Positions 1 to 16,195 of a stretch of DNA of 64,000 nucleotides are shown piece by piece. Positions within the stretch are counted from its first letter, which is position 1. Each line of letters starts with the position of its first letter. The DNA lies in contig NZ_VFPL01000001.1 of NCBI RefSeq assembly GCF_006716645.1, forward strand, positions 1,736,001 to 1,800,000. The letters are read 5' to 3'. The position numbers were made by a program, and so were the translations under genes. This DNA is from Arcticibacter tournemirensis (GTDB taxonomy: Bacteria; Bacteroidota; Bacteroidia; Sphingobacteriales; Sphingobacteriaceae). The notes below the pieces were generated by a model. The model saw nothing but the letters and a program-made list of their open reading frames with translations, was not told the origin of the DNA and made no database searches.

Positions 1-1
1 C

Positions 2-559
2 TTTGCGAACATATTTGTATATCTGGTTCGTTATGGTGTACTTGACTGGGCTCCAACGTATTTGAAAGAGGCCAAAGGCTTTTCTCTAAGCGAGTCAGGA
101 TGGGCATATTTTGCGTATGAATATGCGGGTATTCCGGGCACCATCATTTGTGGATGGCTTAGTGACAAAGTGTTCAAGGGGCGACGGGCTCCCGCAACCA
201 TTATATATATGGTTTTGGTGTTCATTGCTGTACTTGTGTACTGGAAGAATCCTCCGGGACATATTCTGATCGATAATATAGCCCTCATCACGATAGGATT
301 CCTGATCTACGGTCCGGTAATGCTCATCGGTGTTCAGGCGCTGGATCTGGTTCCCAAAAAGGCGGCAGGCACAGCCGCCGGGTTTACAGGACTATTTGGA
401 TACCTGGGTGGAGCCGTCTTTGCCAATATTGCCATAGGACATGTCGTAGATAAGTGGGGATGGGACGGCGGCTTTATCGTTTTGAGTTCAGCCTGCCTTC
501 TGGCAATCGTATTTACGGCTTTCACCTGGAAAAGAGAATTAAGTAGTATAAAGCAATAA
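2..559 (+). CDS. glpT: Glycerol-3-phosphate transporter GlpT, C-terminal part (5' end outside window)
   Basis: Inner-membrane MFS carrier of the organophosphate:phosphate antiporter family, expected to import sn-glycerol-3-phosphate in exchange for phosphate. The frame is open from base 2; the internal ATG at base 62 is not the start. The stretch [17 protein letters not shown] matches the signature of GlpT proteins, and several hydrophobic segments follow (residues [41 protein letters not shown]). About 185 residues are visible, roughly the last 40 percent of the family length. The susC start codon lies 15 bases after the stop, so the carrier heads or belongs to the same transcription unit as the outer-membrane uptake genes. 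UhpT or a phosphoglycerate carrier of the same superfamily is possible, but glpQ, glpR and glpD nearby favour GlpT. Confidence 0.88.
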
Positions 560-574
560 TCAAACTTAAATAAT

Positions 575-3500
575 ATGTCTCAAAATTTACATCATTTCAA
601 AGGGGGGGGCATTGGTATAAGAGTACTGGTGCTATCTTTTCTGCTTATAACGCTGGTCTCGCTAAGTTATGGCCAGCAACGCAAAAGTATAAGCGGGACA
701 GTAAAAAGTGCGTCAGATGGTTTGCCGGTTATTGGCGCCTCTGTGAAGGTGAAAGGGACTACCCGTGGTACCTCCACCAATGTGAATGGCCAGTATACCA
801 TTTCTGTAAGTAATAAAGAAACTCTGGTTTTTACTGCCATTGGATATAAAGCTAAAGAAGTGTTAGTAGGTGCACAAACAGTAGTTAACGTACAATTGGC
901 GGAGGATGCTGTTCAGCTAAAGGAAGCTGTGGTTACAACAGCTTTGGGGATAAAGAGGGAAGTGAAAGCACTTGGTTATTCTGCTACGTCGATACAAGGA
1001 GAACAGCTGACAGAGGCACTATCGAACAACTGGACAGATGCTTTGTCGGGTAAAATAGCAGGTGTCAACCTTGTACGATCTAATGCAGGGCCTACTGGCT
1101 CTAATAAGATCATTTTAAGAGGAGAAAATAACTTAACAGGAGAAAATGACGCCCTTATCGTGGTTGATGGAGTCGTGATCAACCATGGAAGTGGTCGTAC
1201 AACGGGCACAGGAAGCGGTGCTTATTTGAGTTCAAATGATAGTCCCGTAGATTATGGAAGTGGTCTCAATGATATTAATCCTGAAGATATTGAAAGTGTA
1301 ACCGTGCTGAAAGGTCCGGGAGCTTCTGCTCTCTATGGACAGAGAGGAGCAAATGGAGCTATTATCATAACAACGAAATCGGGAAGCAAGTCAAAATCAA
1401 AGGGGTTGGGAATTACTTTTAATTCGAATACTTCCATTGAAAGTGTTTCAAGATGGCCTGAATACCAGTACGAATACGGACAAGGAACAGAAGGTAGCGA
1501 TTATTATTCTTTCGGGACTACTACCGATGGTTCAAGTACAAGGAGTACCAGTTCTGCCTGGGGGCCTAAATTCAACGGGCAGTCGTTTTTTCAGTACGAT
1601 CCAGTTACTCATACTGGAGCAACCGTCAGAACTCCCTGGGTCGCTTATCCTGATAATAGAAAGGACTATTTTGAAACTGGAAAAACTTTTACGAATAGTG
1701 TCAGCTTAAACGGGGGAACAGATAAGACGTCGGTGCGTTTTTCATTTACTAATGTTGATAATAGCTGGATTATTCCCAACACGGGCTACAACAGGAATAC
1801 AATTGCTCTGTCCGCAAGTACGAAGGTAACCGATAAATTTACTCTTTCAACGAAAATTAATTACACGAGAAAGTGGAGTGACAACCTACCGTCGACGGGA
1901 TATAATAACCAGTCAATTATGTATTGGAATATTGCCTGGGTACCAAACGGAAATCTTGACTGGTTAACGGATTATTGGCTTCCGGGAAAAGAGAATGTTT
2001 CACAAAGTTACCCATATAGTAGTTATCCGGACAATCCATATCTCATAGCCTACGAGATGCTGAATAAGTCTAACAGAAATGGGATGACAGGGAACGTTCA
2101 GGCTACTTACAACTTTACCAAAGATTTAAGTCTGATGGTGAGAACGTCTTTAGATTTCTCATATGATCAGAGATCTCAGCAAAGACCGTTTGATACTGAG
2201 AATTTTAAAAGGGGAATGTACAGGACTCAGAATATTTATTCTCAGGAAATGAGCAGCGATTTCCTTTTGAAGTATGAAAAGAAAATTAATAAGGATATCG
2301 ATTTTTCAATTTCTGCGGGTGGGAGTCAGCTAAAGAATAATTATACTAAAGATGAGTTAAGGGCTGACTCTTTACTATATGCAGGCGTTTATAATCTCGG
2401 AAATAAAGCAGGAATCTTACAGCCATTACCATATAAGAGCGAGTACGCTATAAATAGCCTTTACGGACTTGCCACTATAAGTTACAAGGATTATCTCTTT
2501 GTGGATATTACCGGACGTAACGACTGGAACAGCGTTCTGGCTAATAAATATTCTACAGAAAATACATCGTTTTCCTACCCGTCTTTGAACGTCAGCGGGA
2601 TCCTTTCACAGATGTTTCGTTTACCGACCTTTATCTCATTCGCAAAGTTAAGGGGTTCTGTTGCAAGTGTCGGAAGTGGAGGACAAACCCCATATTCTAC
2701 ATCTTATACGTACCCTGCTACGAGTACTTTCCCCGGGGGGCAGGAAAATCCGACGACCCTTCCGAATCTTAACTTGAAACCTCTGCGAACTACGAGTTAT
2801 GAAGTCGGGACGGATTTGCGATTTTTAAAGGATAGAATCGGGTTTGACGTTACCCTTTATAAAAGCGATACAAGAGACCAGATATTGAGTGCTGTAATCG
2901 ACGCATCTTCGGGTTATAGAAATATGATCGTTAATGCAGGAAATATCCAAAATAAAGGGATCGAAATTCAGGCAAATAGCTCTGTTTTGAAAAAGAAAAA
3001 TGGGCTTAACTGGAATATAAATGCAACTTTTTCAGCAAATAAAAATACAGTAGTTTCCTTAAATGACACGGTACAAAGCCTGACATTACAGAATGGTCCG
3101 GGTAGCAGAGGGGCGGTTATCGCAAAAGTTGGAGGCAGTATAAGCGCGTTATATGGAAGGGGCTATGCTCGTTCAACTGGCGGTCAGATTATCTATTCAG
3201 GCGGTTATCCAGTAATTACCGACAGCATGCTTTATATGGGTGATACCAATCCGAAATGGAAAGCAAGTATAGGTAACAGAATTACTTATAAGCAATTCAC
3301 GTTTAGCTTCCTCGCAGACGCGCAATTCGGAGCTGTAGCTTATTCCTTAACTGCAGCTAACCTCGCAGAACAGGGCAAAACTAAAAACACACTGCCGGGG
3401 AGGTATAACGGAATTATCGGAAAGGGAGTAATACAGAACGCAGATGGATCGTACAGTCCTAACAATGTGACCGCAACCGATATTTGGTCGTATTACACGT

Positions 3501-3787
3501 TGCACTATGGCAAGGACAATGTGGAAGGAACAACTTACTCGACAGACTTTCTTAAATTGAGAGAAGCAAGACTTGATTACAGACTTAGTCCGAAGGCAAG
3601 TAAGCGTCTCGGCTTACAAAACGCTTCGATAGGTGTGTATGGCCGTGATTTATTTATGATTACAAAATGGCCAACATTTGATCCTGAATTTGGAACGCTC
3701 AATGATGGAGTGATTAATAAAGGATTTGAGTTGGGGCAGTTTCCTTCTACAAGAACCTTTGGAGTGAACTTAGTTATTGGAATTTAA
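575..3787 (+). CDS. SusC/RagA-family TonB-linked outer-membrane transporter
   Basis: Outer-membrane, TonB-dependent importer that pairs with the SusD lipoprotein encoded next. The 1070-residue product shows a signal peptide (about residues 1-33, ending SLSYG before QQ), a CarboxypepD_reg-like beta-sandwich (about 38-115, SGTVKSASDGLPVIGASVKVKG), a plug domain with the SusC hallmarks VVVDGVVIN and GPGASALYGQRGANGAIIITTK, and a long beta-barrel ending in a hydrophobic strand (NLVIGI). It lies between glpT (15-bp gap) and susD (10-bp gap). An uninterrupted run of eight G at 602-609 encodes the glycines just before the hydrophobic core of the signal peptide. Because its neighbours are phosphodiesterases and glp genes, its cargo is inferred to be a glycerophosphate-containing oligomer rather than a plain glycan. 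Confidence 0.95.
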   Translation: MSQNLHHFKGGGIGIRVLVLSFLLITLVSLSYGQQRKSISGTVKSASDGLPVIGASVKVKGTTRGTSTNVNGQYTISVSNKETLVFTAIGYKAKEVLVGAQTVVNVQLAEDAVQLKEAVVTTALGIKREVKALGYSATSIQGEQLTEALSNNWTDALSGKIAGVNLVRSNAGPTGSNKIILRGENNLTGENDALIVVDGVVINHGSGRTTGTGSGAYLSSNDSPVDYGSGLNDINPEDIESVTVLKGPGASALYGQRGANGAIIITTKSGSKSKSKGLGITFNSNTSIESVSRWPEYQYEYGQGTEGSDYYSFGTTTDGSSTRSTSSAWGPKFNGQSFFQYDPVTHTGATVRTPWVAYPDNRKDYFETGKTFTNSVSLNGGTDKTSVRFSFTNVDNSWIIPNTGYNRNTIALSASTKVTDKFTLSTKINYTRKWSDNLPSTGYNNQSIMYWNIAWVPNGNLDWLTDYWLPGKENVSQSYPYSSYPDNPYLIAYEMLNKSNRNGMTGNVQATYNFTKDLSLMVRTSLDFSYDQRSQQRPFDTENFKRGMYRTQNIYSQEMSSDFLLKYEKKINKDIDFSISAGGSQLKNNYTKDELRADSLLYAGVYNLGNKAGILQPLPYKSEYAINSLYGLATISYKDYLFVDITGRNDWNSVLANKYSTENTSFSYPSLNVSGILSQMFRLPTFISFAKLRGSVASVGSGGQTPYSTSYTYPATSTFPGGQENPTTLPNLNLKPLRTTSYEVGTDLRFLKDRIGFDVTLYKSDTRDQILSAVIDASSGYRNMIVNAGNIQNKGIEIQANSSVLKKKNGLNWNINATFSANKNTVVSLNDTVQSLTLQNGPGSRGAVIAKVGGSISALYGRGYARSTGGQIIYSGGYPVITDSMLYMGDTNPKWKASIGNRITYKQFTFSFLADAQFGAVAYSLTAANLAEQGKTKNTLPGRYNGIIGKGVIQNADGSYSPNNVTATDIWSYYTLHYGKDNVEGTTYSTDFLKLREARLDYRLSPKASKRLGLQNASIGVYGRDLFMITKWPTFDPEFGTLNDGVINKGFELGQFPSTRTFGVNLVIGI
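602..609 (+). repeat. Poly-G tract (G8) inside susC signal-peptide codons
   Basis: Eight consecutive G fall within codons 10-12 of susC (Gly-Gly-Gly). Slippage by one base would shift the frame before the transporter begins. No other G run of this length was noticed in the window. Whether its length varies is not visible in one sequence. Confidence 0.85.
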
Positions 3788-3797
3788 AACACAGACG

Positions 3798-5249
3798 ATG
3801 AAAAAATATATTTTATATACACTATTTTTCATATTAACAGTTTCTTCCTTTTCCTGTAAGGACGGGTTCAAGGATTTAAGTATTAATCCCAATACAAGTG
3901 AATTTGTTTTACCTCAAGCCCTGCTCGCTCCTGCTTTGGTAGACGTGGTCGCTGCTAACATGAACAGAAGCAGAAGGATCACAAACGAGCTTATGCAGGT
4001 CACTGTTGACATGGGCGACTCTGATGGAAAAATTTTCCGGTACGAAATCAGGAAATCGGAAGCCGATTATCTTTGGAATGCCTGGTATACTCAGTTGACA
4101 AACTTTAATGATATTTACACGGGCGGTAGAGATAATCTCAGTAATACTTATATGGGAATAGCCCGGATATGTCAGGCATGGATTTTTTCTATGCTTACTG
4201 ACACTTACGGAGATGTTCCCTATTTTAATGCCAACAAAGGCAGAGAAGGAAATATAACTCCTGCTTTTGACAGACAAAAGGATATCTATGAAGATATTTT
4301 TACCAAGTTAGAGGAAGCTAACCAACTGCTTGATGCTGCAGAGAAAGCGAAGGAAACAGTTTTGGCTTCAAGCGATCCAATATACGGCGGGTCTCCTACA
4401 AAATGGCGCAGGTTTGGTAATTCGCTCTACCTGAGGTTGCTATTACGTGTTTCAGGAAAGTCGGAAATAGATGCTGTTTCGAAAATTAAAGAAATAGTAC
4501 AAACAAATTCGGTGAATTATCCGATTATGGCGAGTAATGACGATTCTGCAATATTAAGATGGACAGGAGTGTCTCCTTTGGTAACACCTTTTGTTGATTT
4601 AAGGGACGCAGATTGGTATACTCCAAAGTCGGCCTCTTTTTTTGTGGATAATCTTGTGGAATGGGGAGATCCACGCATTTCAAGTTGGGTGACTATGTCC
4701 CGCGGTGAATACGTAGGTATTCAAAGTGGCTATCCGGTCGGTGAAGCCCCTGAAGGAAGATCGTCTCTTGTCACCGCATTAAAAAGCAGCCCGCTTCTTG
4801 GTAATATCATGAACTATTCTGAACTACAGTTTATTCTTGCAGAAGCAGCGACAAGGGGGTGGATCACTACTCAGACCGCTCAAAGCTTTTATGAGGCAGG
4901 TATTACAAGCGGCATTGCCATGTGGGGTGCAACAATGCCCGCGAATTATCTGCAGGGGGCGTCCATTATGTGGGATAACGATTTTTCGCTGGATAGTAAA
5001 TTGGAATTGATCCACGTTCAGAAGTACTATTCGTTGTTCTTTACTGACTTACAAAGTTGGTTTGAGTACCGTAGGACGGGACATCCAAATTTACCTATAG
5101 GTCCGGGCGTTGGAAACAATGGTGCTATGCCATCAAGGATAAGTTATCCAGTATATGTACAGTCAACGAATGGTGAAAATTATAAAGCCGCAGTAGCTTC
5201 ACAGGGACCGGATGACATCAGCACAAAAGTATGGTGGCAGAAACCTTAA
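3798..5249 (+). CDS. SusD/RagB-family nutrient-binding outer-membrane lipoprotein (SusD-like 2 type)
   Basis: Surface lipoprotein that caps the SusC channel and delivers ligand. The start was set at ATG 3798, not the upstream in-frame ATG at 3777 inside susC, because it gives a clean lipoprotein signal (MKKYILYTLFF then VSSFSC, Cys20) and leaves a 10-bp gap to susC. The 483-residue length, the NPNTSEFVLPQALLAPALVD opening, the motifs AWIFSMLTDTYGDVPYF and NSLYLRLLLRVSG, and the late ILAEAATRGW helix are those of the SusD/RagB subfamily. The ligand cannot be read from sequence; the locus suggests glycerol-phosphate oligomers. Confidence 0.93.
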   Translation: MKKYILYTLFFILTVSSFSCKDGFKDLSINPNTSEFVLPQALLAPALVDVVAANMNRSRRITNELMQVTVDMGDSDGKIFRYEIRKSEADYLWNAWYTQLTNFNDIYTGGRDNLSNTYMGIARICQAWIFSMLTDTYGDVPYFNANKGREGNITPAFDRQKDIYEDIFTKLEEANQLLDAAEKAKETVLASSDPIYGGSPTKWRRFGNSLYLRLLLRVSGKSEIDAVSKIKEIVQTNSVNYPIMASNDDSAILRWTGVSPLVTPFVDLRDADWYTPKSASFFVDNLVEWGDPRISSWVTMSRGEYVGIQSGYPVGEAPEGRSSLVTALKSSPLLGNIMNYSELQFILAEAATRGWITTQTAQSFYEAGITSGIAMWGATMPANYLQGASIMWDNDFSLDSKLELIHVQKYYSLFFTDLQSWFEYRRTGHPNLPIGPGVGNNGAMPSRISYPVYVQSTNGENYKAAVASQGPDDISTKVWWQKP

Positions 5250-5279
5250 TAAGAAGACGAATAATAAAATATAGTTATT

Positions 5280-6788
5280 ATGAAAAAGATATTTAAACTT
5301 ATTCTCGGGCTTGTAATTGTAGCGATGGGAATGTCGTGTGAGAAGCACGACTTCGCGGAAGGAGAGCTGAGCTCATTCATAAATATACAAAGAGTACGAC
5401 TATTATACCGAGATGCAGACCTTACTCTGACGCGAGAAAATCTTGACGGAGCCCAGATTACAGCAGGTACAGTTATTTCTGTTTTGGATTCAGGAAACGT
5501 GTCGCCGGGCATCGTTGTAATTCAAAGTGAACGGGGTGGTAAAATGCGCGGTATATCATTGGAGTTAGGCAGCGATGCAAGTAACTATCGCGCCGGAGAT
5601 TCCTTAAGCGTTAATATAATAGGGGGTATTTTGAAAAGGGTGGACGGCACCTTACGGATATCAGGCTTATCTCCTCAGTCAGTCGAAAAAGTAGATGAGA
5701 ATAAAAATGTAGTAATTAGGACCGCAACCGCAATTAATATTAATTCAAAGCCAGAAGAGTATGAAAGCACTGCTGTTAGAATATACGGGCTAAAGTTTAC
5801 TCCTGATTTAGGCATTGAAACGATAGGGGGGACTAAAGTATTTAATGATAATTCTGCTGACATGCAAATGCACGTGGAATCGTCGAGCGAACTTTCAAGT
5901 TCTCTTCTGCCTAAGACAGCAACTGTTACCGGGATTATCTTTCGTAATTCCGAGGGAGTGATGCAGGTCTGGCCAAGAGTGAAATCAGATTTTATCAGTA
6001 CCAGTATAATTGTTGATCCGCGTATCCCCTTAGGCAAATTTCCGGTTATTATTACAGGTTTCTTGTCAGATCCTACCGGAACCGATGCTAACTACGAGTA
6101 TATTCAGTTTATGGCTACACAAGATCTTGATTTTGAGAATACGCCATTTAGCGTAGTAACTTCTAATAATGCCGGTTCGGCAACTCCAACGGGTATGCCT
6201 GTTAATGGATGGGCTACTGGAGAGATGAGAACTTATAAGTTTAATCTCACTTCAGGGACTGTGGCAAAAGGTTCATTCTTTTATGTGGGCGGATATAAAC
6301 AAGTATGGGGCTCTTCTTCTGCAGATATCAGTTCTGCCAAATGGATTGCTAATATCCTTTACGCTTCAACACCTGGAAATGGTTTTGGAACGGTCACTAC
6401 AAATCTTCTAGCAAATAGCGGAAATGGGGCGGGAATTGCCGTATTTAAGGGTACAGATGTTACTGTTAATTCGGTGCCTGTAGATGTGATATTCTTTGGT
6501 GGGGACGGAAATCTATTTTCTGCTGGCCCCCCTGCAGTGGGATACCGAATTACTGACAATGACCTGTATTCAACCATGGAAGGTACCCAGCCTTTCTATA
6601 AGCAAGGCACGAATACTAAAAAGTTCTCCTTCCCTGCTGCCACAAATTTTGCCAAGCTCGGAGGTGTTTACAATGTTACTTCTCAGAGTTGGACTACGGC
6701 GCGGGTGAAAACAGACGTGCCCCTGGGGAATGGTTCTACAATAACTGTCTTAGAAGCAGGAAATGGCGTTACAAAATTAGAACAGTAA
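5280..6788 (+). CDS. DUF5689-domain surface lipoprotein (putative ligand-binding accessory protein)
   Basis: Exported lipoprotein of 502 residues with signal peptide and lipobox (VAMGMSC, Cys20). The N-terminal half (about residues 30-230) fits the DUF5689 family, an OB-like fold common in Bacteroidota utilisation loci directly after susCD. The second half (about 245-500) is beta-rich, with Gly-, Ser- and Thr-rich segments typical of surface binding modules. It is 30 bp after susD, the usual place of a surface substrate-binding protein, so binding of the same polymer as SusCD is inferred. No catalytic motif was seen. A long stem-loop follows the stop codon and may set the transcript ratio between the uptake genes and the downstream enzymes. 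Confidence 0.8.
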   Translation: MKKIFKLILGLVIVAMGMSCEKHDFAEGELSSFINIQRVRLLYRDADLTLTRENLDGAQITAGTVISVLDSGNVSPGIVVIQSERGGKMRGISLELGSDASNYRAGDSLSVNIIGGILKRVDGTLRISGLSPQSVEKVDENKNVVIRTATAININSKPEEYESTAVRIYGLKFTPDLGIETIGGTKVFNDNSADMQMHVESSSELSSSLLPKTATVTGIIFRNSEGVMQVWPRVKSDFISTSIIVDPRIPLGKFPVIITGFLSDPTGTDANYEYIQFMATQDLDFENTPFSVVTSNNAGSATPTGMPVNGWATGEMRTYKFNLTSGTVAKGSFFYVGGYKQVWGSSSADISSAKWIANILYASTPGNGFGTVTTNLLANSGNGAGIAVFKGTDVTVNSVPVDVIFFGGDGNLFSAGPPAVGYRITDNDLYSTMEGTQPFYKQGTNTKKFSFPAATNFAKLGGVYNVTSQSWTTARVKTDVPLGNGSTITVLEAGNGVTKLEQ

Positions 6789-6817
6789 TTCGTTGACTTC
6801 TTTCATTTCAAACCGGC

Positions 6818-6860: not shown

Positions 6861-6914
6861 TGGTTATAGCAAATGACGATTTTCGTTTATTCAAGAGACT
6901 TATTCCACTTAGTT

Positions 6915-8087
6915 ATGAAGAGACAACTTAATTATAGCTTGTTGATATTCCTCCTGCTTTTTGCAGGATGTAAAAAAGGGAATGATAAGGATGACAATGG
7001 ATCAGGAACGGCAACGATAGCCTTAAATTTGCCTGATGCCATCTTTACCGATCTAACAAAGGTATCTGTAGGGCAGGCCTCCCCTGTAATTATGGACAGG
7101 CTTATCGCCCTGATAGACGCCACTCCTGCCAATGCCACAATTCATTTGTCAATTTTTGGTTTCGACCATAGTGGCGTAATTAACGCACTAAAGAAAGCGA
7201 GTGAGCGAGGTGTTATTCTGCACATCATGATCGATATGAGTGTTGAGGATACTAAAGCTCAAAATCCCCCGACTATTAGTACGATCAGAGGATTTATCAA
7301 AGCTGGTTCTGAAGTGGTCGTAGTAACAAATGACGTAAATACCTCGTCAATCAATCACAATAAATTTGTTCTGTTCTCTGAGCTAAACACTGATAAGGGT
7401 AAGGTTTCAAACGTTGTTTTCCAAACTTCCCACAATTTTACTGTTGACGATTCTAAAAAAATACAGGATGCAGTAACTATGAGCCATGAAGGCCTCTACA
7501 ATGCGTATGTGACCTACTGGAACGATATCAAGGCTAAAGCTTCAAGCGGCATGAAGGATTTCTATTACAAGGAATACGTTAATGATGCCGATGGAATTAC
7601 GGCATTTTTCTTTCCTAAACGTCGTAATGGAATATCATATGGAGATGATACTATTATCGAAATTCTAAACAATATTACCGAGCCTTCTACAGCTACTGTT
7701 CGGGTAGGAATGTCGGATTGGGTGGTATCACGTATTAATGTGGCTAATAAGCTTAGCGAATTGGTGACTGCAGGTGCTAAAGTGGAAGTAGTTGTAAAGA
7801 ATAAGATAGATGATGAGGTGCAGGCTGTTTTGAGGGATATGCAAAGCAGAGGTGCCTTCGTAAAAATATATGATATTTCAAGAACGAATATCCACTCGAA
7901 GTTTCTGCTGATAGAAGGCAAATACAAGGGGCAGCAGTGTACCATTGTTGCTACCGGAAGTCATAACTATACTACAAATGCCTTGCGTAACAATAACGAA
8001 ACTTTACTGATGCTAAAGAATAGCAGCTTATATGCTAAATATATCAGCTACTACAACGAGATGAAAAAACTTCCTGGTATTAACTAA
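6915..8087 (+). CDS. Phospholipase-D-like (HKD) secreted lipoprotein
   Basis: Predicted phosphodiesterase of the PLD superfamily, exported as a lipoprotein. The start was moved from ATG 6873 to ATG 6915, which gives MKRQLNYSLLIFLLLFAGC with Cys19 as lipobox cysteine. Two PLD half-motifs are visible: His148 in INHNKFVLF with a downstream TSHN, and His327 in IHSKFLLIEG with a downstream GSHN. In both, the usual Asp of HxK(x4)D is changed (Ser in the first, Glu in the second) while the catalytic His and Lys remain. Such variants occur in secreted PLD-like proteins, so activity is still plausible. It is 19 bp upstream of the metallophosphoesterase gene and follows susCD, so the target is inferred to be phosphodiester bonds of the imported polymer. 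Nuclease or phospholipid-hydrolase activity are alternatives. Confidence 0.82.
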   Translation: MKRQLNYSLLIFLLLFAGCKKGNDKDDNGSGTATIALNLPDAIFTDLTKVSVGQASPVIMDRLIALIDATPANATIHLSIFGFDHSGVINALKKASERGVILHIMIDMSVEDTKAQNPPTISTIRGFIKAGSEVVVVTNDVNTSSINHNKFVLFSELNTDKGKVSNVVFQTSHNFTVDDSKKIQDAVTMSHEGLYNAYVTYWNDIKAKASSGMKDFYYKEYVNDADGITAFFFPKRRNGISYGDDTIIEILNNITEPSTATVRVGMSDWVVSRINVANKLSELVTAGAKVEVVVKNKIDDEVQAVLRDMQSRGAFVKIYDISRTNIHSKFLLIEGKYKGQQCTIVATGSHNYTTNALRNNNETLLMLKNSSLYAKYISYYNEMKKLPGIN

Positions 8088-8106: not shown

Positions 8107-9510
8107 ATGAACAGAAGATCGTTTATAAAAAAATCCGGCTTATTTGCCGGTACTCTTTTTATAAGTTTAAAATCCTATCCGTTTGACAGGAGAGAAAAGA
8201 AAATAACCGGAAGGGTTCACAGCCTAAAGAATGGACTGCAAGGTGTGGTTGTATCCGACGGATATAGCGTTGTAGTAACAGACAAGAACGGCTATTACAG
8301 CATCGAACCAAATGAAAATGCCAGATTCCTTTGGGTTAGTACACCGGCAGGTTATGAGTTCAATACCGAGAGCAACCTTGCGAGACATTACGAAGGTATT
8401 GGTAGCAGAAATCAGTATGACTTTCAGCTGAAGCCTTTGAACGTGGATGACAGCCGCCATAATTTTATTATATGGGCCGACCCCCAGGTAAAGGATAAAT
8501 CGGATGTTGTCCAGATGATGGAAACGGCAGTGCCTGACGTGAAGAAACTTGTCGGAGGTATGGGCGGAACTCTGGTTCATGGAATAGGCGTAGGCGATCT
8601 GGTTTGGGATAACCATACCTTGTTCGCTGATTATGAAAAGGCTGTTGCCGACATGGGGGTCCCATTCTTTCAGGCTCTTGGAAATCACGATCAGGACTAC
8701 CGCCGGGGAGGAGACGAAACGTCCGATGTTACTTTCAGTGAACATTTCGGGCCTACATATTACTCATTTAGCCGGGGCAAAGCACATTATGTGGTACTTG
8801 ACGACGTAAGATATCTGGGAGAGGACAGAAAGTATGATGGGTATGTTAATCAACAGCAACTCGACTGGCTTAAGAAGGATCTTCAGCTCATACCCAGGGA
8901 TAATCTTGTGATTGTTTGTCTGCATATTCCGGTATATTCACAAGTGAAGAATAATGGAGACCTGTATGCTCTGCTCAGGCCCTTCAAAAATGTGCATATC
9001 ATGTCGGGTCACACCCACTACAATATCAATAACATCCAAAATGATATTTTTGAGCATAATCATGGTACTGTGTGCGGAGCCTGGTGGACCGGACCGGTCT
9101 GTGGTGATGGAACTCCCCGTGGCTATGGCGTCTATGAAGTGAACGGTACTGATCTGAAATGGTATTATAAAGCGACAGGCAGGGAGAAAGAATACCAGCT
9201 CAGTGTCGATATTGAAACCCTGAATAATCAGAAACGGTTCATCGCCAATGTCTGGAACTGGGATCCCCAATGGAAAGTGGAGTGGTGGGCCGATGATAAA
9301 TATATGGGAGAGCCTGAGAATATAAAGGGTTTTGATCCTCTTACGATACGACTATATAAAGGAGATAATTTACCAGCCAAACGGCCCTTCGCAGAGCCTC
9401 ATAAAACCGATCATCTGTTTGTCGGCCACTTTGCACCTTCTGTAAAAAAGGTGAAGGTCGTTGCAACGGATCGCTTTGGTCAGAAGTTTACGGCTGAATT
9501 AAATGGATAA
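8107..9510 (+). CDS. Exported calcineurin-like metallophosphoesterase (MetallophosN / catalytic / MetallophosC)
   Basis: Binuclear-metal phosphoesterase of 467 residues. An RRSFIKK sequence at residues 3-9 ahead of a hydrophobic segment resembles a twin-arginine signal. The N-terminal beta domain (about 32-115, carboxypeptidase-regulatory-like) is followed by the catalytic domain with metal motifs ADPQ, GVGDLVWD, GNHD, CLHIP and SGHTH, and a C-terminal beta domain (about 330-465). The first motif has Gln where many calcineurin enzymes have His. This three-domain architecture is a known Bacteroidota family whose substrates are mostly unassigned. Its 3' end overlaps the longest reading of the glpQ gene, indicating tight co-translation. 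With the PLD-like and GlpQ proteins it makes three different phosphodiesterase folds in a row. Confidence 0.88.
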   Translation: MNRRSFIKKSGLFAGTLFISLKSYPFDRREKKITGRVHSLKNGLQGVVVSDGYSVVVTDKNGYYSIEPNENARFLWVSTPAGYEFNTESNLARHYEGIGSRNQYDFQLKPLNVDDSRHNFIIWADPQVKDKSDVVQMMETAVPDVKKLVGGMGGTLVHGIGVGDLVWDNHTLFADYEKAVADMGVPFFQALGNHDQDYRRGGDETSDVTFSEHFGPTYYSFSRGKAHYVVLDDVRYLGEDRKYDGYVNQQQLDWLKKDLQLIPRDNLVIVCLHIPVYSQVKNNGDLYALLRPFKNVHIMSGHTHYNINNIQNDIFEHNHGTVCGAWWTGPVCGDGTPRGYGVYEVNGTDLKWYYKATGREKEYQLSVDIETLNNQKRFIANVWNWDPQWKVEWWADDKYMGEPENIKGFDPLTIRLYKGDNLPAKRPFAEPHKTDHLFVGHFAPSVKKVKVVATDRFGQKFTAELNG

Positions 9511-9526
9511 ATTAACAAATGTTAGA

Positions 9527-10459
9527 ATGAGAAATAAAAGATTCGGTTTTTTGACGAAACTTAAGGGTATTACTTTTGTAGTAGCGGCCTCTTTGGCAAG
9601 CTGCAGTACAATGAAAAATACCAGCCAAACGGATGCTTCGTTTCCTGCCTTAAGCCTTGAGGCTCATCGTGGAGGGAGAGGCTTAATGCCTGAGAATACT
9701 ATCATCGCTATGATCAATGCGATGAAGATTGAGGGTATTACAACACTGGAGATGGATACTCATATAACAAAGGATCATGAGGTGGTAGTTACGCACGACG
9801 ATTACCTGAGCCCGGCGTTTATGCTAACGCCGGAAGGGAAGGAAATTCCGAGCTCTGACGCGAAAAAATATCCAATATATGGTCTTTCGTATGCTGAGCT
9901 GAGCAAGTTTGACATTGGTACAAAGTACTATAGCGCTTTTCCTCAACAGAGAAAAATTAAAACTTATATTCCTCGCCTGGAAGATTTGATCGACTCGGTT
10001 CAGGCGTATATCAAAGCGAACAACAAGAAGCAATATTTCTACAATATCGAGACTAAATGCAGTGAAAAGGGCGATAATATTCTGCATCCGGAACCCGGCA
10101 GGTTTGTTGAGTTGTTAATGAACGTGATTGAAAAGAAAAAAATAACTCCTTATGTTGTGATCCAGTCATTCGACAAACGAACGATTCAGATCATTCATAA
10201 GAAATATCCACAGGTAAAAACGTCTTATCTTGTGAATAATAAGAAAAGCTACGAAGAGAATATCGCGGACCTGGGCTTTAAGCCTTTTATTCTAAGTCCT
10301 GATTTTAAGATGGTTGATGCTGATCTGGTACAGAAGGCCCATCGCGATGGCGTGAAGATAGTGCCATGGACAGCAAACTCAAGTGAAGAGATTAATCGTC
10401 TTAAAGGGTTGAAGGTTGACGGTATCATTTCCGATTATCCTGATCTCCTGGTGAAGTAG
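9527..10459 (+). CDS. glpQ: Glycerophosphodiester phosphodiesterase, lipoprotein form
   Basis: GDPD-family enzyme that splits glycerophosphodiesters to sn-glycerol-3-phosphate plus an alcohol; family members also act exolytically on poly(glycerol-phosphate). Catalytic features are present: the EAHRGGRGLMPENT block (His47 in this numbering), the EMDTHIT acid residues, the THDD His and the metal-binding Glu in YNIETK. An in-frame ATG at 9503 overlaps the upstream gene by 8 bases. ATG 9527 was chosen because it gives a normal lipoprotein signal (hydrophobic stretch then SLASC), but either may be used. Its product, glycerol-3-phosphate, is the substrate of GlpT at the head of the operon and of GlpD downstream, which is the strongest functional link in the locus. 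Confidence 0.92.
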   Translation: MRNKRFGFLTKLKGITFVVAASLASCSTMKNTSQTDASFPALSLEAHRGGRGLMPENTIIAMINAMKIEGITTLEMDTHITKDHEVVVTHDDYLSPAFMLTPEGKEIPSSDAKKYPIYGLSYAELSKFDIGTKYYSAFPQQRKIKTYIPRLEDLIDSVQAYIKANNKKQYFYNIETKCSEKGDNILHPEPGRFVELLMNVIEKKKITPYVVIQSFDKRTIQIIHKKYPQVKTSYLVNNKKSYEENIADLGFKPFILSPDFKMVDADLVQKAHRDGVKIVPWTANSSEEINRLKGLKVDGIISDYPDLLVK

Positions 10460-10514
10460 GAGTGTCCATTTCTTGATGTAGTTTACACAGTGTTGTCAAT
10501 CTAAATTTATAAAG

Positions 10515-11207
10515 ATGAAATATTTATTAAGAAGAGCGCTTTTTCTATTGCTGGCGACTCTAATTTTAGGTTCTGCCCGCCTGTCGGCACAGGAAGCAAA
10601 ATGGGATAGCACCTACAGGCCTGGGAAATATGTCGCAAAAGTTACGGCTTTCAAGTCTGAGCCGAAGTCAAAGAAAGATATAATATTTTTAGGGAACAGT
10701 ATAACCGCAGGAACCGACTGGTCTAAACTACTAGACCTTCCGGCTGCGAAAAATCGAGGAATATCCGGGGATATAACCTTCGGTGTTTTAGAACGCCTGG
10801 ATGACGTAATTGCCGGGAAACCATCTAAAGTATTTATTCTGATTGGCATTAATGATATTTCAAGAAATATCCCTGACAGTATTATTCTCCGGAATTACCG
10901 GTCGATTATTAGCCGCATAGAAAAGGGCTCGAAGAAAACGAAGATTTATTTCTATACGCTTTTACCGGTAAACAGCTCATTTAACAAGTTTAAAAATCAT
11001 TATGGTAAAGACGAGCATATTCTGTGGCTTAATGAGGAGATAAAGAAACTTGCGGACAAGAAGGTTACGGTTATTGATCTCTATCCCCATTTTTTGGACG
11101 ATAACAAACACTTGAAAGCTGAGTATACTAAAGATGGCCTACATCTCAATGAGGCTGGCTACAAGGTGTGGGCTGACCTTCTGAAGAATGGAGGGTATTT
11201 AAAGTAG
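10515..11207 (+). CDS. Exported SGNH/GDSL-family hydrolase
   Basis: Small secreted esterase (230 residues) with a signal peptide (about 1-25, RLSAQ end). SGNH blocks are visible: GNSIT with catalytic Ser62, the Gly in NRGISGD, GIND for block III Asn, and DGLHLN with Asp207 and His210. It resembles the PAF-acetylhydrolase-like/acetylesterase branch. In this locus it could remove ester substituents (acetyl or D-alanyl) so that phosphodiesterases and the glycosidase can work; that is inference. It follows glpQ by 55 bp and precedes GH89 by 2 bp. Confidence 0.87.
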   Translation: MKYLLRRALFLLLATLILGSARLSAQEAKWDSTYRPGKYVAKVTAFKSEPKSKKDIIFLGNSITAGTDWSKLLDLPAAKNRGISGDITFGVLERLDDVIAGKPSKVFILIGINDISRNIPDSIILRNYRSIISRIEKGSKKTKIYFYTLLPVNSSFNKFKNHYGKDEHILWLNEEIKKLADKKVTVIDLYPHFLDDNKHLKAEYTKDGLHLNEAGYKVWADLLKNGGYLK

Positions 11208-11209
11208 GG

Positions 11210-13429
11210 ATGAAAAAAGAACTTTTTTTAATTACTTTCCTAGCTATCTTCATATCCTCTTATTCGGGTTACACACAGGAAGCTGGTTCCAGCCTTAATA
11301 AAAGTGCTGTTAGAAGCCTGATAAAAAGAATACTACCCTCTCACTCGCACTTTTTCGATGTAGCTTTTATTCCTCAGGAAAACGGAAAGGATGTTTTTCA
11401 GATTGAAACAAAAAATGGGCAGATACTATTGAGCGGACCGAATGGGGTTTCGGTAGCTAGCGCGCTGAATTATTACCTGAAGAACTTTGCAGGTTGCGAT
11501 ATTGGCTGGAACGGAACAAATTTGAATCTCCCTCCAAAGCTGCCTTTGCCGAAGGAGAAGATTCACAAGCAGACTCCATATACATATCGGTATAATTTAA
11601 ACTATTGTACTTTTAATTATACCATGAGCTGGTGGGATTGGGACCGTTGGGAATGGGAAATTGACTGGATGGCCCTCAATGGGATTAATATGCCGCTTGC
11701 TCTTACGGGGCAAAATTCAATCTGGGATCGCGTTTATAAAAGCCTGGGTTTTACAGACAAAGATCTTGCCGGATTCTTCAGCGGGCCAGCTTATTTTAAC
11801 TGGTTCTGGATGGGGAATCTGGATGGATGGGGCGGCCCGCTTCCGCAAAGTTTTATGGAAATGCATGAAGCGTTGCAGAAGAGGATCCTTTCACGGGAAA
11901 GAGAGCTGGGAATGACTCCAGTTCTGCCGGCCTTTACAGGTCATGTCCCTCCTTCGTTTAAAGATAGATATCCGCAGGCCAAGCTAAAGAAGACCTCATG
12001 GCAGGGATTCCCTGATGTGTATATCCTGGATCCTGATGATCCAATGTTCCTGGCGATAGGTAAAAAATTCATTGGGGAAGAAATAAAAACATTTGGTACG
12101 GATCATTTGTATTCTGCCGATACTTTCAATGAAAATACCCCTCCAACGAATGATTCGACATATTTAAACGATATCAGTCGAAAAGTTTACCAGTCTATGG
12201 CCGAAGCTGATAGTAAGGCTACATGGATAATGCAAGGGTGGATGTTTTCTTATTCAGCAAAGTTCTGGCAGCCTACGCAGATCAAAGCCCTGTTGAATGG
12301 AATTCCCAATGATAGAATGATCATCCTGGACTTATATAGTGAAAGTAAGCCAGTGTGGAACCGGACAGAAGCTTACTACGGCAAGCCCTGGATATGGTGT
12401 ATGCTCCACAACTTTGGTGGCAATATCAGTATGTATGGCCGTATGAACAATGTAGCTAATGATCCGGCCAACGCTCTTCACGATCCAAAGTCAGGTAACC
12501 TTGTAGGGATTGGTCTCACTCCGGAAGCTATAGAGCAGAATCCCGTGATGTACGAACTCATGCTTGAGCATGTTTGGAGGGATAAACCGATAGATCTGGC
12601 GACGTGGCTACCAGACTATTCCAGTCGCCGGTATGGCAAGAGGAATCAGAATGCAATAAAGGCATGGGAAGTATTAAGGAATACAGTATACAATGGAGCC
12701 ATTACTTCGGGTGGCCCGGAATCGATTATAACAGGAAGACCTACATTTAATAAAACTACACGCTGGACAAATACGAAAAAGGCCTATCATCCGAAAGATC
12801 TGCTGCCTGCCTGGAATTTGTTAATCACCGCATCGCCAGACTTGAAGAACAGCGACGGCTTTCAGTATGACCTGGTAGACCTGACCAGGCAAGTACTGGT
12901 AAACTATGCAGATACATTACAGCAGCGATTCGCCAAAGCTTACAAAGCAAAAGATGTGGCTAACTTCAAAAAGTACAGCAATGAGTTTTTAATGGTTATT
13001 GACGATGTGGATAAGCTGCTTTCTTCCAGAAAAGATTTTTTATTGGGCAGGTGGTTGAATGCAGCCCGAAAATGGGGGACTAGTGCTGAAGAGAAACGGC
13101 TTTATGAGATGAATGCCAGAAATCAAATAACTCTCTGGGGCGATGAGAACAGCGTTTTGAACGACTATGCCTGTAAACAATGGGCAGGACTACTTCATGA
13201 TTTTTATAAACCACGCTGGAAGCAGTTCTTTGAATACGTTATCCCGCTTATGGAAAATGACAAGGAGGTGAACCTGAAAGTATTTGAAAGTAAAATTAAA
13301 AGTTGGGAATGGAGCTGGGTACAGAAAACAAACTCATACAATGACATGCCGTCGGGCGATCCAGTTGGTTTCTCAAAGCAAATGTACCGGAAGTATGAAA
13401 AGTTGATAAAACAGGCTGATAAGGATTAA
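11210..13429 (+). CDS. GH89 alpha-N-acetylglucosaminidase (NAGLU-like), exported
   Basis: Exo-hydrolase that releases terminal alpha-linked GlcNAc. The 739-residue product has a signal peptide (to about residue 22, SGYTQ) and the three NAGLU regions: an N-terminal alpha/beta domain (about 30-115), the (beta/alpha)8 core (about 120-460) with RYNLNYCTFNYTMSWWDWDRW, LALTGQ, a conserved Glu in the ADTFNENTPP block and the CMLHNFGGNISMYG block, then a C-terminal helical domain with LTPEAIEQNPVMYELM. It is the only glycosidase of the locus and the last gene of the run; a strong hairpin follows. In a locus otherwise made of phosphodiesterases, a cap-removing role on alpha-GlcNAc side groups fits. 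Heparan-like or mucin-type substrates are known for other GH89 members and remain possible. Confidence 0.93.
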   Translation: MKKELFLITFLAIFISSYSGYTQEAGSSLNKSAVRSLIKRILPSHSHFFDVAFIPQENGKDVFQIETKNGQILLSGPNGVSVASALNYYLKNFAGCDIGWNGTNLNLPPKLPLPKEKIHKQTPYTYRYNLNYCTFNYTMSWWDWDRWEWEIDWMALNGINMPLALTGQNSIWDRVYKSLGFTDKDLAGFFSGPAYFNWFWMGNLDGWGGPLPQSFMEMHEALQKRILSRERELGMTPVLPAFTGHVPPSFKDRYPQAKLKKTSWQGFPDVYILDPDDPMFLAIGKKFIGEEIKTFGTDHLYSADTFNENTPPTNDSTYLNDISRKVYQSMAEADSKATWIMQGWMFSYSAKFWQPTQIKALLNGIPNDRMIILDLYSESKPVWNRTEAYYGKPWIWCMLHNFGGNISMYGRMNNVANDPANALHDPKSGNLVGIGLTPEAIEQNPVMYELMLEHVWRDKPIDLATWLPDYSSRRYGKRNQNAIKAWEVLRNTVYNGAITSGGPESIITGRPTFNKTTRWTNTKKAYHPKDLLPAWNLLITASPDLKNSDGFQYDLVDLTRQVLVNYADTLQQRFAKAYKAKDVANFKKYSNEFLMVIDDVDKLLSSRKDFLLGRWLNAARKWGTSAEEKRLYEMNARNQITLWGDENSVLNDYACKQWAGLLHDFYKPRWKQFFEYVIPLMENDKEVNLKVFESKIKSWEWSWVQKTNSYNDMPSGDPVGFSKQMYRKYEKLIKQADKD

Positions 13430-13433
13430 AAAA

Positions 13434-13467
13434 ATGTTTGCGGCTACTGTAGTTTAGCCGCAAACAT
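13434..13467. terminator. Bidirectional terminator between the GH89 gene and glpR
   Basis: ATGTTTGCGGCTA (13434-13446) and TAGCCGCAAACAT (13455-13467) form a perfect 13-bp stem with an 8-nt loop. A-rich sequence on the left and TAAATTTATT on the right give U-rich tails on both strands. It lies between the converging GH89 and regulator genes. Confidence 0.85.
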
Positions 13468-13471
13468 AAAT

Positions 13472-14239
13472 TTATTCTGCGATAGTAACTTTGATTCCGC
13501 TTTCTTCGAGAACAGATTTCATAGAGCCCGAAATTCCGCTGTCGGTTATAATATGCTGGATCTTATCAAGGCTGCAAATTTTCCCGAGGCCCCGTTTTCC
13601 GAACTTCGAACTGTCGGCCAGCACCACAGTTACCTGTGCTGCATCCATCATTTTTTGATTCAGGCGGGCTTCCATCAAACTGGTTGTTGTAAGTCCGGTT
13701 TCAGGGTCGATGCCATCAACCCCAAGGAACAGCACTCCGCAGGTAACATCCTTTAATAATTCTTCGGCATAAGGCCCAGCCACCGATGACGAATTTTGCC
13801 GCAGTTGTCCGCCTAATTGTAACACTTCGACGTTTGGCCGATGAGATAATTCAAGAGCAACATTCAGGGCTGAGGTAATAACAGTAAGGTGGCTTAACGG
13901 ATTTATGCACCGCGCAAGTGCAAGAACAGTTGTGCCTGAAGCAATAATGATCGAGTCGTTCTGGCCGATCATTTTGGCGGCTTCTTTTGCTATTCTCTGT
14001 TTTTCTTCCCTGTATAACTGTTCTTTCTCGTTTACAGGCCTGTCATTAGCATACGGATTTTTGACGGATCCGCCTCCGTGTGTTCTAAAAAGAAGGTTTT
14101 TATCTTCCAGTAACTTCAGGTCCTTTCTGATGGTAACATCAGACACGTCCATTTCTGAACTTAATTCCTGAACGCTTACATGTCCGTGTTCTTTAAGTTT
14201 TTGCAGAATTAGTTGGTGCCGGTCGGTAATACTTATCAT
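13472..14239 (-). CDS. glpR: DeoR-family transcriptional repressor, GlpR-like
   Basis: DeoR/GlpR-type regulator of 255 residues. The N-terminal winged helix (about 1-57) contains VSVQELSSEMDVSDVTIRKD, followed by the family hallmark LFRTHGGGS. The C-terminal sugar-phosphate-binding domain carries GTTVLALA, LGGQLR, LFLGVDGID and VVLADSSKFG. It is convergent with the phosphodiesterase operon and divergent from glpD. Known GlpR members release DNA on binding glycerol-3-phosphate, so derepression of this locus by its own end product is inferred. The gene name rests on context more than on diagnostic residues, since DeoR members for other sugar phosphates look alike. Confidence 0.85.
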   Translation of the reverse strand: MISITDRHQLILQKLKEHGHVSVQELSSEMDVSDVTIRKDLKLLEDKNLLFRTHGGGSVKNPYANDRPVNEKEQLYREEKQRIAKEAAKMIGQNDSIIIASGTTVLALARCINPLSHLTVITSALNVALELSHRPNVEVLQLGGQLRQNSSSVAGPYAEELLKDVTCGVLFLGVDGIDPETGLTTTSLMEARLNQKMMDAAQVTVVLADSSKFGKRGLGKICSLDKIQHIITDSGISGSMKSVLEESGIKVTIAE

Positions 14240-14593
14240 GTATGGATAGATTTAGTGCTTTTATGGGTATTGTCAATAATAAACCAAAAGTATAGAATAA
14301 ATTCTTAAACCTAAAATTACAATTTCGCTCCGATTATACATCATTATTTTATTGTTATTTTTCCTAATTTATAATAGCTTTTTCCTTGCGGGTGGTATCA
14401 ATTTAATGTATAAACCGATCATTTTACGAACATCTCTTTTGTTTGGGTTTTGTTTCCTTTCTAAACCGCCATATCTTAACAAAACAAGAAATAAGAAATT
14501 TCGACATATTATTTTTTATTTTTCTTTTATTTCGTTTTGTTATTTTTTACTTTTGGATATCTTTAAGTAGGATAACAGTAAAACCAATATAAA
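14240..14593. promoter_or_regulatory. glpR-glpD divergent intergenic region with candidate operators
   Basis: About 350 very AT-rich bases without a convincing gene. TTTCG occurs at 14323-14327, 14499-14503 and 14530-14534; the last two are 31 bp apart (about three helical turns), and the first two are followed by ATTAT-type sequence. CGAACAT at 14427-14433 resembles a half-site of the enterobacterial GlpR operator. These are candidate GlpR sites only. Confidence 0.4.
14548..14555 (+). promoter_or_regulatory. Putative -7 element for glpD
   Basis: TACTTTTG fits the Bacteroidota TAnnTTTG -7 consensus exactly and lies 38 bases before the glpD ATG. No good -33 TTG was seen at the usual spacing. 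A TTTCG candidate operator sits just upstream, where bound repressor would block it. Confidence 0.55.
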
Positions 14594-16195
14594 ATGAAAA
14601 ATATTAAGCGAAGCGAAATCATAAAAGGGATCTCAAATCCCGCTGACGTCTGGGATGTGATTGTAGTTGGAGGCGGGGCGACGGGATTAGGGGCTGCTTT
14701 AGATGCTGCAGCCCGGGGATTCAAAACAGTTTTATTTGAGCAGGCTGATTTTGCAAAAGGAACATCAAGCAGAAGTACGAAACTTGTCCATGGAGGCGTG
14801 CGATATCTGGCACAGGGTGACGTGGGACTGGTTAGAGAGGCATTGTATGAACGGGGTCTTCTTCTCCGTAATGCAGCACACCTGGTAAAAAACGAATCCT
14901 TTATTATTCCAAACTACGAATGGTGGGGTGGTGCTTTTTACACAATCGGATTAACCATGTACGATTTGCTTGCGGGTAAACTGAGCCTTGGACGTTCTAA
15001 ACATATTTCAAAGAAGGAGGTTATCCGGCGGATTCCTACAATCAGGCAGAAAGGGCTATACGGTGGCGTTGTTTACCACGACGGGCAGTTTGACGATTCG
15101 CGGCTTGCAGTAAATCTGGCTCAGACATGTCTTGAAAAGGGCGCTACCATTTTAAATTATTTCTGTGTTAAGAGCTTGCTGAAGCAGAATGGTAAAACAG
15201 CAGGAGTAATTGTGAATGATGAAGAAACAGGCAAAGTTTATAATATTAAAGGGAAGACTGTAATAAATGCTACCGGAGTTTTTGTTGACGACCTGTTAAG
15301 AATGGATGAGCCCGCGCGCAAGCCGCTGGTGAGACCAAGCCAGGGTGTCCATATTATTCTCGATAAGTCATTTATGAACGGTGACGACGCCCTTATGATT
15401 CCGAAAACAGATGACGGCCGCGTTCTTTTTGCTGTGCCATGGCATGACAAACTGGTTGTAGGAACAACTGATACGCCACTGAATGAACATAGTATGGAGC
15501 CTAAGGCCCTGGAAGAAGAAATTGAGTTTATTCTCAATACAGCGTCAAGATATCTGTCGAAGGCGCCTTCGCGGAAGGATGTTTTAAGTGTTTTTGCAGG
15601 TCTTCGTCCCCTGGCCGCACCCCAGGGTGATTCTGCTAAGACGAAAGAAATTTCGCGCAGTCACAAGATCATCGTATCAGATTCGGGACTTATTACAATA
15701 ACTGGAGGGAAATGGACTACATTCAGAAGAATGGGCGAGGATACCATCGACAAAGCAATAAAGGTGGGTAATTTAAAGGCATTGCCTTGTAAAACAAAGG
15801 ACCTACCTGTGCACGGGAGCAGGAAGACTGTCGATTTTACCGACCATCTGTATGTATATGGAACCGACCAGCAAGATCTGATGAAACTGGCTAAAGAGAA
15901 CCCCGAATGGCAGGAAAGGCTTCATTCTGATTTGCCTTTTACCAAAGTTGAGGTGGTATGGGCCGTTAGACACGAGATGGCCAGAACCGTAGAAGATGTA
16001 TTAGCGAGACGGGTAAGAGCTTTGTTTCTTGATGCTCAGGCAGCAATAGATATGGCACCCACGGTAGCAGCTTTACTCGCCGGCGAACTAGATAAAGATG
16101 CTGATTGGGAAAGAGAACAGGTCGACGCCTTTATTGATATCGCCAAAGGCTATTTATTAAAACCCTATAGAAAACCCGAAAGACTTGAAGTTTAA
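14594..16195 (+). CDS. glpD: Aerobic glycerol-3-phosphate dehydrogenase
   Basis: FAD enzyme that oxidises sn-glycerol-3-phosphate to dihydroxyacetone phosphate and passes electrons to quinone at the inner membrane. The 533-residue protein has the dinucleotide-binding motif VVGGGATGLGAALDAA near residue 25, the family block GTSSRSTKLVHGGVRYL, the substrate-domain motifs PSQGVHI, VGTTDTP and FAGLRPL, GGKWTTFRRM, and the C-terminal DAO_C helical domain with VRHEMARTVEDVLARR. It completes the route from external glycerophosphodiester to DHAP. No glycerol kinase gene is present in the window, and none is needed if phosphorylated glycerol enters through GlpT. Confidence 0.96.
   Translation: MKNIKRSEIIKGISNPADVWDVIVVGGGATGLGAALDAAARGFKTVLFEQADFAKGTSSRSTKLVHGGVRYLAQGDVGLVREALYERGLLLRNAAHLVKNESFIIPNYEWWGGAFYTIGLTMYDLLAGKLSLGRSKHISKKEVIRRIPTIRQKGLYGGVVYHDGQFDDSRLAVNLAQTCLEKGATILNYFCVKSLLKQNGKTAGVIVNDEETGKVYNIKGKTVINATGVFVDDLLRMDEPARKPLVRPSQGVHIILDKSFMNGDDALMIPKTDDGRVLFAVPWHDKLVVGTTDTPLNEHSMEPKALEEEIEFILNTASRYLSKAPSRKDVLSVFAGLRPLAAPQGDSAKTKEISRSHKIIVSDSGLITITGGKWTTFRRMGEDTIDKAIKVGNLKALPCKTKDLPVHGSRKTVDFTDHLYVYGTDQQDLMKLAKENPEWQERLHSDLPFTKVEVVWAVRHEMARTVEDVLARRVRALFLDAQAAIDMAPTVAALLAGELDKDADWEREQVDAFIDIAKGYLLKPYRKPERLEV

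Follow-up and report, generated by a model that had tools for sequence, protein, structure and literature searches.

We analysed a window of 64,000 nucleotides from Arcticibacter tournemirensis (contig NZ_VFPL01000001.1, positions 1,736,001 to 1,800,000), which opens with a nine-gene plus-strand operon running from glpT to a gene for a GH89 alpha-N-acetylglucosaminidase, with intergenic gaps of -11 to 84 bases. The gene order is glpT-susC-susD-DUF5689-PLD-metallophosphoesterase-GDPD-SGNH-GH89; a DeoR-type regulator gene and glpD come next (Table 1). An earlier sequence-only reading had described this gene set as one run followed by glpR and glpD, and all the named genes were found in the order and on the strand claimed. 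However, glpT is truncated by the window edge, and 'glpR' is secure as a DeoR-family gene and as GlpR by position only. The complete glpT lies at G000:C1:1735222-1736559, and 15 bp separate it from susC. The SusCD, phosphodiesterase and GH89 operon closes at a hairpin; a scan found 17 hairpins vs 15.0 in shuffles, and therefore only this strong one was used. The glpD gene starts 354 bases past the regulator gene. The adjacent susC/susD pair that marks a Sus-type locus is present. Among carbohydrate-active enzymes, GH89 lies inside the close-spaced run, and a GH36 alpha-galactosidase lies outside it, immediately upstream of glpT (G000:C1:1732746-1734905; L003 6746-8905). This GH36 is the only one in the genome above the cut-off, and Flavisolibacter likewise has a GH36 in its homologous run (L098).

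Table 1. Features of the operon and its flank, in window positions.
Feature	Position	Strand	Evidence or remark
glpT, 3' part, operon gene 1	1..559	+	start codon 779 bases beyond window edge
susC-type TonB-dependent transporter	575..3787	+	TIGR04056, 1e-168
susD-type surface lipoprotein	3777..5249	+	PF12771 subfamily, 4e-105; family alignment
DUF5689 lipoprotein	5280..6788	+	PF18942
PLD-like phosphodiesterase lipoprotein	6873..8087	+	PF13091; lipobox
Calcineurin-like phosphoesterase, twin-arginine-type signal	8107..9510	+	PF16371/PF00149/PF16370
GDPD (GlpQ-type) lipoprotein	9503..10459	+	PF03009
SGNH esterase, secreted	10515..11207	+	PF13472
GH89 alpha-N-acetylglucosaminidase, secreted	11210..13429	+	NAGLU N, barrel, C domains
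Terminator-like hairpin, two-way	13434..13467	.	13 pairs; between GH89 and regulator
DeoR-family regulator	13472..14239	-	domain matches
Operator-like box, DeoR-type, TTTCGTTTTGTTAT, upstream of glpD	14530..14543	+	shared core
glpD	14594..16195	+	sole genome match at E <= 1e-20

The genome comprises 5.66 Mb in two contigs and holds one match to glpD at the threshold given in Table 1, together with one additional GDPD. The sequence-only reading had remarked that no glycerol kinase is needed by the pathway; the genome does hold a single glycerol kinase gene and a single facilitator gene, adjacent to each other and elsewhere (1399713-1401955). A second SusCD-DUF5689 locus (L031) carries GH89 and an Exo_endo_phos enzyme.

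The proteins were compared with family models and solved structures. The whole GlpT protein exceeded the TIGR00712 glpT cut-off (730 vs 632.55 bits) and stayed slightly below that of NF008433 (738.5 vs 748 bits), and it is predicted to be the glycerol-3-phosphate:phosphate antiporter. GlpD was closest to glycerol-3-phosphate dehydrogenase models, yet under their cut-offs (303.8 vs 360 bits). SusD matched PF12771 with 352 bits and PF14322 with 25.1 bits, below the latter's cut-off of 27, and its relatives of solved structure indicated no single ligand. The DUF5689 lipoprotein is likely a surface binding protein. Its predicted model (predicted local distance difference test score 88.7; predicted template-modeling (TM) score 0.56) shows OB-fold-like domains in the N-terminal half; the C-terminal half is separate, rich in beta structure and has no Pfam match. 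In the PDB, the fold was matched weakly and by OB-type structures only (TM by query about 0.2), and we therefore claim no function from it.

The PLD-like protein matched NucT (6ehi) at 5e-5 and carries what we take by eye to be two HxK motifs with the usual D replaced. Its relatives at E <= 1e-60 occurred in only 14 of the 251 genomes of the family, so PLD was considered accessory. The metallophosphoesterase found two marginal acid phosphatases among solved structures and nothing better. The PF03009 domain spans the whole length of the GDPD (3ch0 match, 1e-60), which would be expected to release glycerol-3-phosphate. The closest solved structures of the SGNH protein were sialate O-acetylesterase and lysophospholipase L1. 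GH89 contains full NAGLU domains and matched human NAGLU (4xwh) at 7e-182; both glutamates that we take to be the catalytic pair align with that structure. Signal peptides were assessed by eye and with simple motif expressions. By eye, SusD, DUF5689, PLD and GDPD are lipoprotein-like; the lipobox expression matched PLD and GDPD only, and it matched 13/39 GDPD and 51/105 DUF5689 proteins among labelled relatives. The twin-arginine motif was found in the metallophosphoesterase of the window and in 61 of 70 labelled relatives. SGNH, too, matched this expression; like GH89, it probably carries an ordinary export signal.

To describe the conservation of the locus, a profile of 11 SusD relatives was scanned over species genomes, and the best 80 of at least 570 related stretches were kept. 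Each stretch extends up to 10 kb on each side, and nine of the 80 are under 21 kb owing to contig ends. Seventy-four loci were scored; L061, L067, L093, L100, L119 and L120 were omitted, with no SusD frame at the expected place. Genes were labelled with purpose-built profiles, and counts cover the whole stretch unless stated. The 80 loci came from Pedobacter, Mucilaginibacter, Sphingobacterium, Chitinophaga and relatives, Hymenobacter, Pontibacter, Rufibacter and others. DUF5689 stood within the susD run in 73/74 loci, and 62/74 had a phosphoesterase of some kind. The metallophosphoesterase (50/74) was the commonest enzyme adjoining these SusCD pairs, followed by GDPD (31/74), SGNH (10/74) and PLD (4/74). 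GlpD was found in 19 loci, a DeoR-family regulator labelled GlpR in 18, GlpK in 15, GlpF in 14 and GlpT in 12; for GlpK and GlpF the figures for the same-strand run equal those for the whole stretch. Some of the GlpD matches were partial, the lowest coverage being 0.26. At least two glp genes were present in 19 loci, which include members of Pedobacter, Sphingobacterium, Daejeonella, Chitinophagaceae, Flavisolibacter, Niabella, Pontibacter and Rufibacter.

The enzymes and the glp genes occurred together. GDPD was present in 11/12 loci with GlpT vs 20/62 loci without it (Fisher 1.7e-4), and SGNH in 10/19 loci with GlpD vs 0/55 others (Fisher 1.3e-7); as the loci are related to each other, these values serve as guides only. 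A simple binomial that ignores relatedness put the chance of glpD adjoining SusD in at least 19/74 loci at about 8e-23. Thus, the link of a SusCD system with phosphodiesters and glycerol-3-phosphate, as proposed from the window alone, recurs in related loci of several genera.

Two kinds of NAGPA-type phosphodiester glycosidases were labelled in 2/74 and 4/74 scored loci. PF09992 (NAGPA) enzymes were seen in L083 (14136-15978), L090, L092 and L137, with NHL-type or PLD proteins, and were paired in L083 (by Pfam) and L137 (by the purpose-built profiles). The NAGPA-bearing loci would belong to the same SusCD family with a different phosphodiester chemistry.

GH89 was followed separately. Among the 251 genomes of the family, GH89 was found at E <= 1e-200 in 65 and SusD at E <= 1e-115 in 131. 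Of the 87 GH89 places, we inspected 37 with their neighbouring genes (ranks 1-30, 32, 33, 35, 36, 40, 66 and 75); the rows of the GH89 tree are these 37 places and two tandem copies, and the neighbourhood labels were fixed before the tree was built. The four best-scoring relatives of the window GH89 (L124-L127, 68-71% identity) all lie beside glp genes, susC and a SusD-like gene, with GDPD in three of the four. L124 reads glpD-susC-susD-DUF5689-x-metallophosphoesterase-sulfatase-GDPD-glpT-SGNH-GH89, and L125 holds GH89, SGNH, glpT, GDPD, DUF5689, susD, susC and glpD on one strand. L126 contains glpD-x-glpT-susCD-DUF5689. In L127, a more distant susC and SusD-like gene (the latter labelled in one of two labelling passes) stand with GH89, DUF2961, GDPD, glpD, glpK, glpF, GH125 and glpT. 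Co-occurrence of GH89 and SusCD with the phosphodiesterases, on which the earlier proposal depended, was therefore found, since L124 and L125 both have SusCD, GDPD, GlpT, GlpD, SGNH and GH89.

In the tree, the window GH89 and L124-L127 formed one clade of five (support 98/91). The glp label required a single change, and none of 500 shuffles was as low. This single clade ties GH89 to glycerol-phosphate chemistry in one lineage, as a functional role would predict. Eleven tree rows were labelled Exo_endo_phos, most of them branching beside the glp clade at forks that are not fully supported (85/75 and 83/69), and the 23 other rows had neither label, except for DeoR-type regulators in L158 and L159.

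GH89 beside Exo_endo_phos enzymes was seen in L031, L033, L128-L132, L146 and L156, with SusC in all except L130. A glycerate kinase is encoded in the L131 locus, and a similar open reading frame was recognised by eye in L128. By their gene content, these appear to be phosphodiester-glycan loci of a second type.

The best NCBIfam match of the regulator was AgaR, under its cut-off (239 vs 260 bits), and we therefore call it DeoR-family; it is probably GlpR, a name taken from its position. A search for palindromic operators gave nothing broadly common (at most four loci), and a direct core, TTTCGTTT, was instead found via shared words. It was present in 12/15 glpR-glpD intergenic regions vs 9/417 control promoters of the same loci. 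Across glp/susC-class promoters it occurred in 16/45, with an average of 1.5 in shuffles, and 15 of these 16 promoters precede glpD. Where glpD leads, the box ahead of it may serve the entire glpD-glpK-glpF-susCD run. The box resembles an AgaR-type operator. Similar boxes, fitted post hoc, stand before glpT (G000:C1:1735084) and glpK (1399543) in the genome. The DeoR-type box thus hints at a link of operon control with glpD and glpKF, and the hint is weak for the operon itself.

Given the recurrent linkage of glp genes, phosphoesterases and SusCD, and the glp-linked GH89 clade, we prefer to read the locus as one through which a SusCD-type system takes up glycosylated glycerophosphodiesters and degrades them to glycerol-3-phosphate, with a probability of about 70%. 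Gene content, operon structure, conservation and the GH89 clade can be read from the DNA itself; protein locations, order of cleavage, substrate and regulation are deduced from it. SusD, DUF5689 and PLD would be placed at the surface, where they would bind the substrate and probably trim it, and SusC would import it. On the periplasmic side, GH89 and the SGNH esterase may strip alpha-linked N-acetylglucosamine (alpha-GlcNAc) and ester groups, and the calcineurin-type esterase and GDPD may cleave the phosphodiester bonds, GDPD freeing sn-glycerol-3-phosphate. GlpT would then carry glycerol-3-phosphate into the cell and GlpD would oxidise it to dihydroxyacetone phosphate (DHAP). The DeoR-type regulator may tie the operon to glpD and glpKF.

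Several results weigh against this reading. GH89 was absent from all 80 nearest SusD loci within up to 10 kb on each side, which suggests that the alpha-GlcNAc step was added in a particular lineage. GH89 thus falls outside the general module, although its four best-scoring relatives lie beside glp genes. Twelve of the 74 loci had no recognised phosphoesterase and 55 had no glpD, which makes the SusCD family wider than the glycerol-phosphate pathway. With looser labels, SGNH was found in L065, L069 and L120, all without glpD (10/19 loci with GlpD vs 2/55 others; Fisher 6e-6). In L126, GH89 itself is on the opposite strand, past the regulator, and GDPD was not found in the stretch. The fifth GH89 relative (L128) scored 1186.6 bits, nearly equal to the fourth (L127; 1187.7 bits), and adjoins Exo_endo_phos enzymes without glp genes. 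L158 and L159 are GH89 stretches whose DeoR-type regulators carry the GlpR label although no other glp gene is present, and in L131 a GlpT-labelled major facilitator superfamily gene lies ~7 kb past the GH89 genes. As for the box, TTTCGTTT was found before susC in 1/13 and before glpT in 0/4 promoters, and in 1/5 glpD-susC, 0/4 glpF-susC and 0/3 FecR-susC promoters. The glpT promoter of the window had one-mismatch forms only and not the exact core. The looser pattern TTTYRTTTTGTTWT gave 7 genome matches vs 4 for the reversed control; three of the 7 precede glpK, glpT and glpD, and as the pattern was devised after seeing the sites, it is a hint rather than proof.

Known systems share parts of the locus. 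The enteric glp regulon (glpT, glpQ, glpD, glpR) performs the same steps from glycerophosphodiester to DHAP; the window locus adds SusCD outer-membrane import, the twin-arginine-type phosphoesterase, the esterase and GH89, and its regulator is, unlike the enteric one, closest to AgaR. Known Bacteroidota GH89 loci combine SusCD and GH89 for mucin or heparin-type targets, with further glycosidases, whereas the window GH89 is linked with phosphodiesterases and glp genes. To our knowledge, teichoic acid turnover in Bacillus subtilis involves neither SusCD nor GH89. Like the window set, the GlpQ/PhoD pair of B. subtilis combines an exo-acting GDPD with an endo-acting phosphodiesterase on a glycerol-phosphate polymer to give glycerol-3-phosphate; unlike the window locus, it serves Gram-positive self-turnover under phosphate starvation, according to excerpts of Walter et al. 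(2020, PMC7086022). The nearest published kind is the Pus systems of Flavobacterium. Excerpts of Lidbury et al. (PMC8115612) describe PUSI and PUSII of F. johnsoniae as SusCD co-localised with periplasmic phosphodiesterases, with a predicted role in importing organic phosphorus. The text of that paper mentions neither GDPD, glycerol nor glpT, and 'glycerophospho' occurs in one reference title only. In the open-access literature, we found no account of a locus with the composition of the window, in line with the earlier reading, which knew of no such described polysaccharide utilisation locus. For DUF5689, a single open-access paper was found, which concerns natural transformation in Riemerella.

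As the substrate, our first guess, by a small margin, is a wall teichoic acid of the poly(glycerol phosphate) type that carries alpha-GlcNAc, a choice that is chemically plausible. The locus would then use poly(glycerol-3-phosphate) (poly(Gro3P)) that dead Gram-positives leave behind, capped with alpha-GlcNAc and ester groups, a proposal that we regard as tentative and less likely than not. In the excerpts of PMC7086022, GlpQ acts exolytically on unmodified wall teichoic acid, freeing Gro3P, and glycosyl or alanyl substituents block it; its endo-acting partner is PhoD. As GlpQ halts at glycosylated or alanylated units, a de-capping glycosidase and esterase beside GDPD make sense, and the window set, by its domains, would supply the exo activity, possibly an endo activity, and de-capping enzymes, as such a polymer needs. 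The GH36 upstream and in the L098 run would suit other alpha-glycosyl caps. However, the GlcNAc-bearing glycerol polymer of B. subtilis in those excerpts is a Gro1P lipoteichoic acid, which resists GlpQ unless cut first; the GH125 alpha-mannosidase of L127 has no obvious teichoic-acid role; and our open-access search found neither growth of Bacteroidota on teichoic acid nor a Bacteroidota system consuming wall teichoic acid. Wall teichoic acid makes up about half of the dry weight of the Gram-positive wall and is phosphate-rich (PMC7086022, in excerpt). A dedicated locus, occurring in variants among several Bacteroidota genera, by which a Gram-negative bacterium imports glycosylated poly(glycerol phosphate) of Gram-positive walls via SusCD, de-caps it and uses glycerol-3-phosphate as a source of both carbon and phosphorus, is possible, although we would not bet on it.

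Alternatively, the substrates may be phospholipid head groups or glycans of the glycosylphosphatidylinositol (GPI)/phosphatidylinositol type, with SGNH deacylating, the glycosidases trimming and GDPD freeing glycerol-3-phosphate. The earlier reading had listed GPI-type glycans and glycosylated glycerophospholipids as alternatives, and these fit the GH125 of L127 and the Exo_endo_phos neighbours as well. The Exo_endo_phos enzymes beside the neighbouring GH89 branch show PGAP2IP similarity (28.0 and 36.5 bits vs a cut-off of 27), and the structural relatives of SGNH agree with a deacylating role. However, GPI carries glucosamine, not GlcNAc, and GH125 was found in one locus alone. Among the glycosidases sought in the 74 loci, GH89 was found in 0 and GH36 in 2. 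GlpQ also accepts phospholipid head groups, according to the excerpts of PMC7086022. We consider this alternative conceivable but less likely than not, and slightly less likely than wall teichoic acid.

It is unlikely that the target is phosphorus and not carbon, as in the Pus systems, which are induced by low phosphate (PMC8115612, in excerpt). The SusCD and phosphodiesterase content agrees with such a role, as does ppk, which lies about 1.75 kb downstream of glpD. PusD1 and PusD2, however, are of the PF07980/PF14322 class, unlike the PF12771 of the window SusD; since PusD is termed polyphyletic in the same excerpts, this mismatch is a weak criterion. The window family instead has GDPD, GH89 and glp genes, and the linked glpR, glpD, glpK and glpF indicate glycerol carbon. 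The glp-type box is weak at the window operon, and no search for a Pho box was made. Uptake of DNA or RNA as the phosphodiester polymer would suit the NucT-like PLD and the OB-like N-terminal half of DUF5689, but the OB matches are weak, GH89 would have no role and GDPD, GlpT and GlpD would be idle, so we rate it as very improbable. Chance adjacency of unrelated genes to a general glycerol regulon, in which the sole glpD must serve all glycerol use, is hardly credible given the operon structure, the recurrence of the linkage in several genera, the locus counts and the GH89 tree.

Even on a weaker reading than uptake of glycosylated glycerophosphodiesters, these data define a recurrent SusCD family bound to glycerol-3-phosphate catabolism. 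They also offer a testable function for DUF5689 and for the unassigned susCD pairs of Pedobacter, Sphingobacterium, Pontibacter, Chitinophagaceae and others.

Elsewhere in the window, positions 17945-20887 encode polyphosphate kinase and then a gene that by eye resembles Ppx/GppA. On the minus strand, positions 50730-63998 hold two SusD genes and genes for a TonB-receptor plug protein, a DUF6377 protein and a GH3 enzyme.

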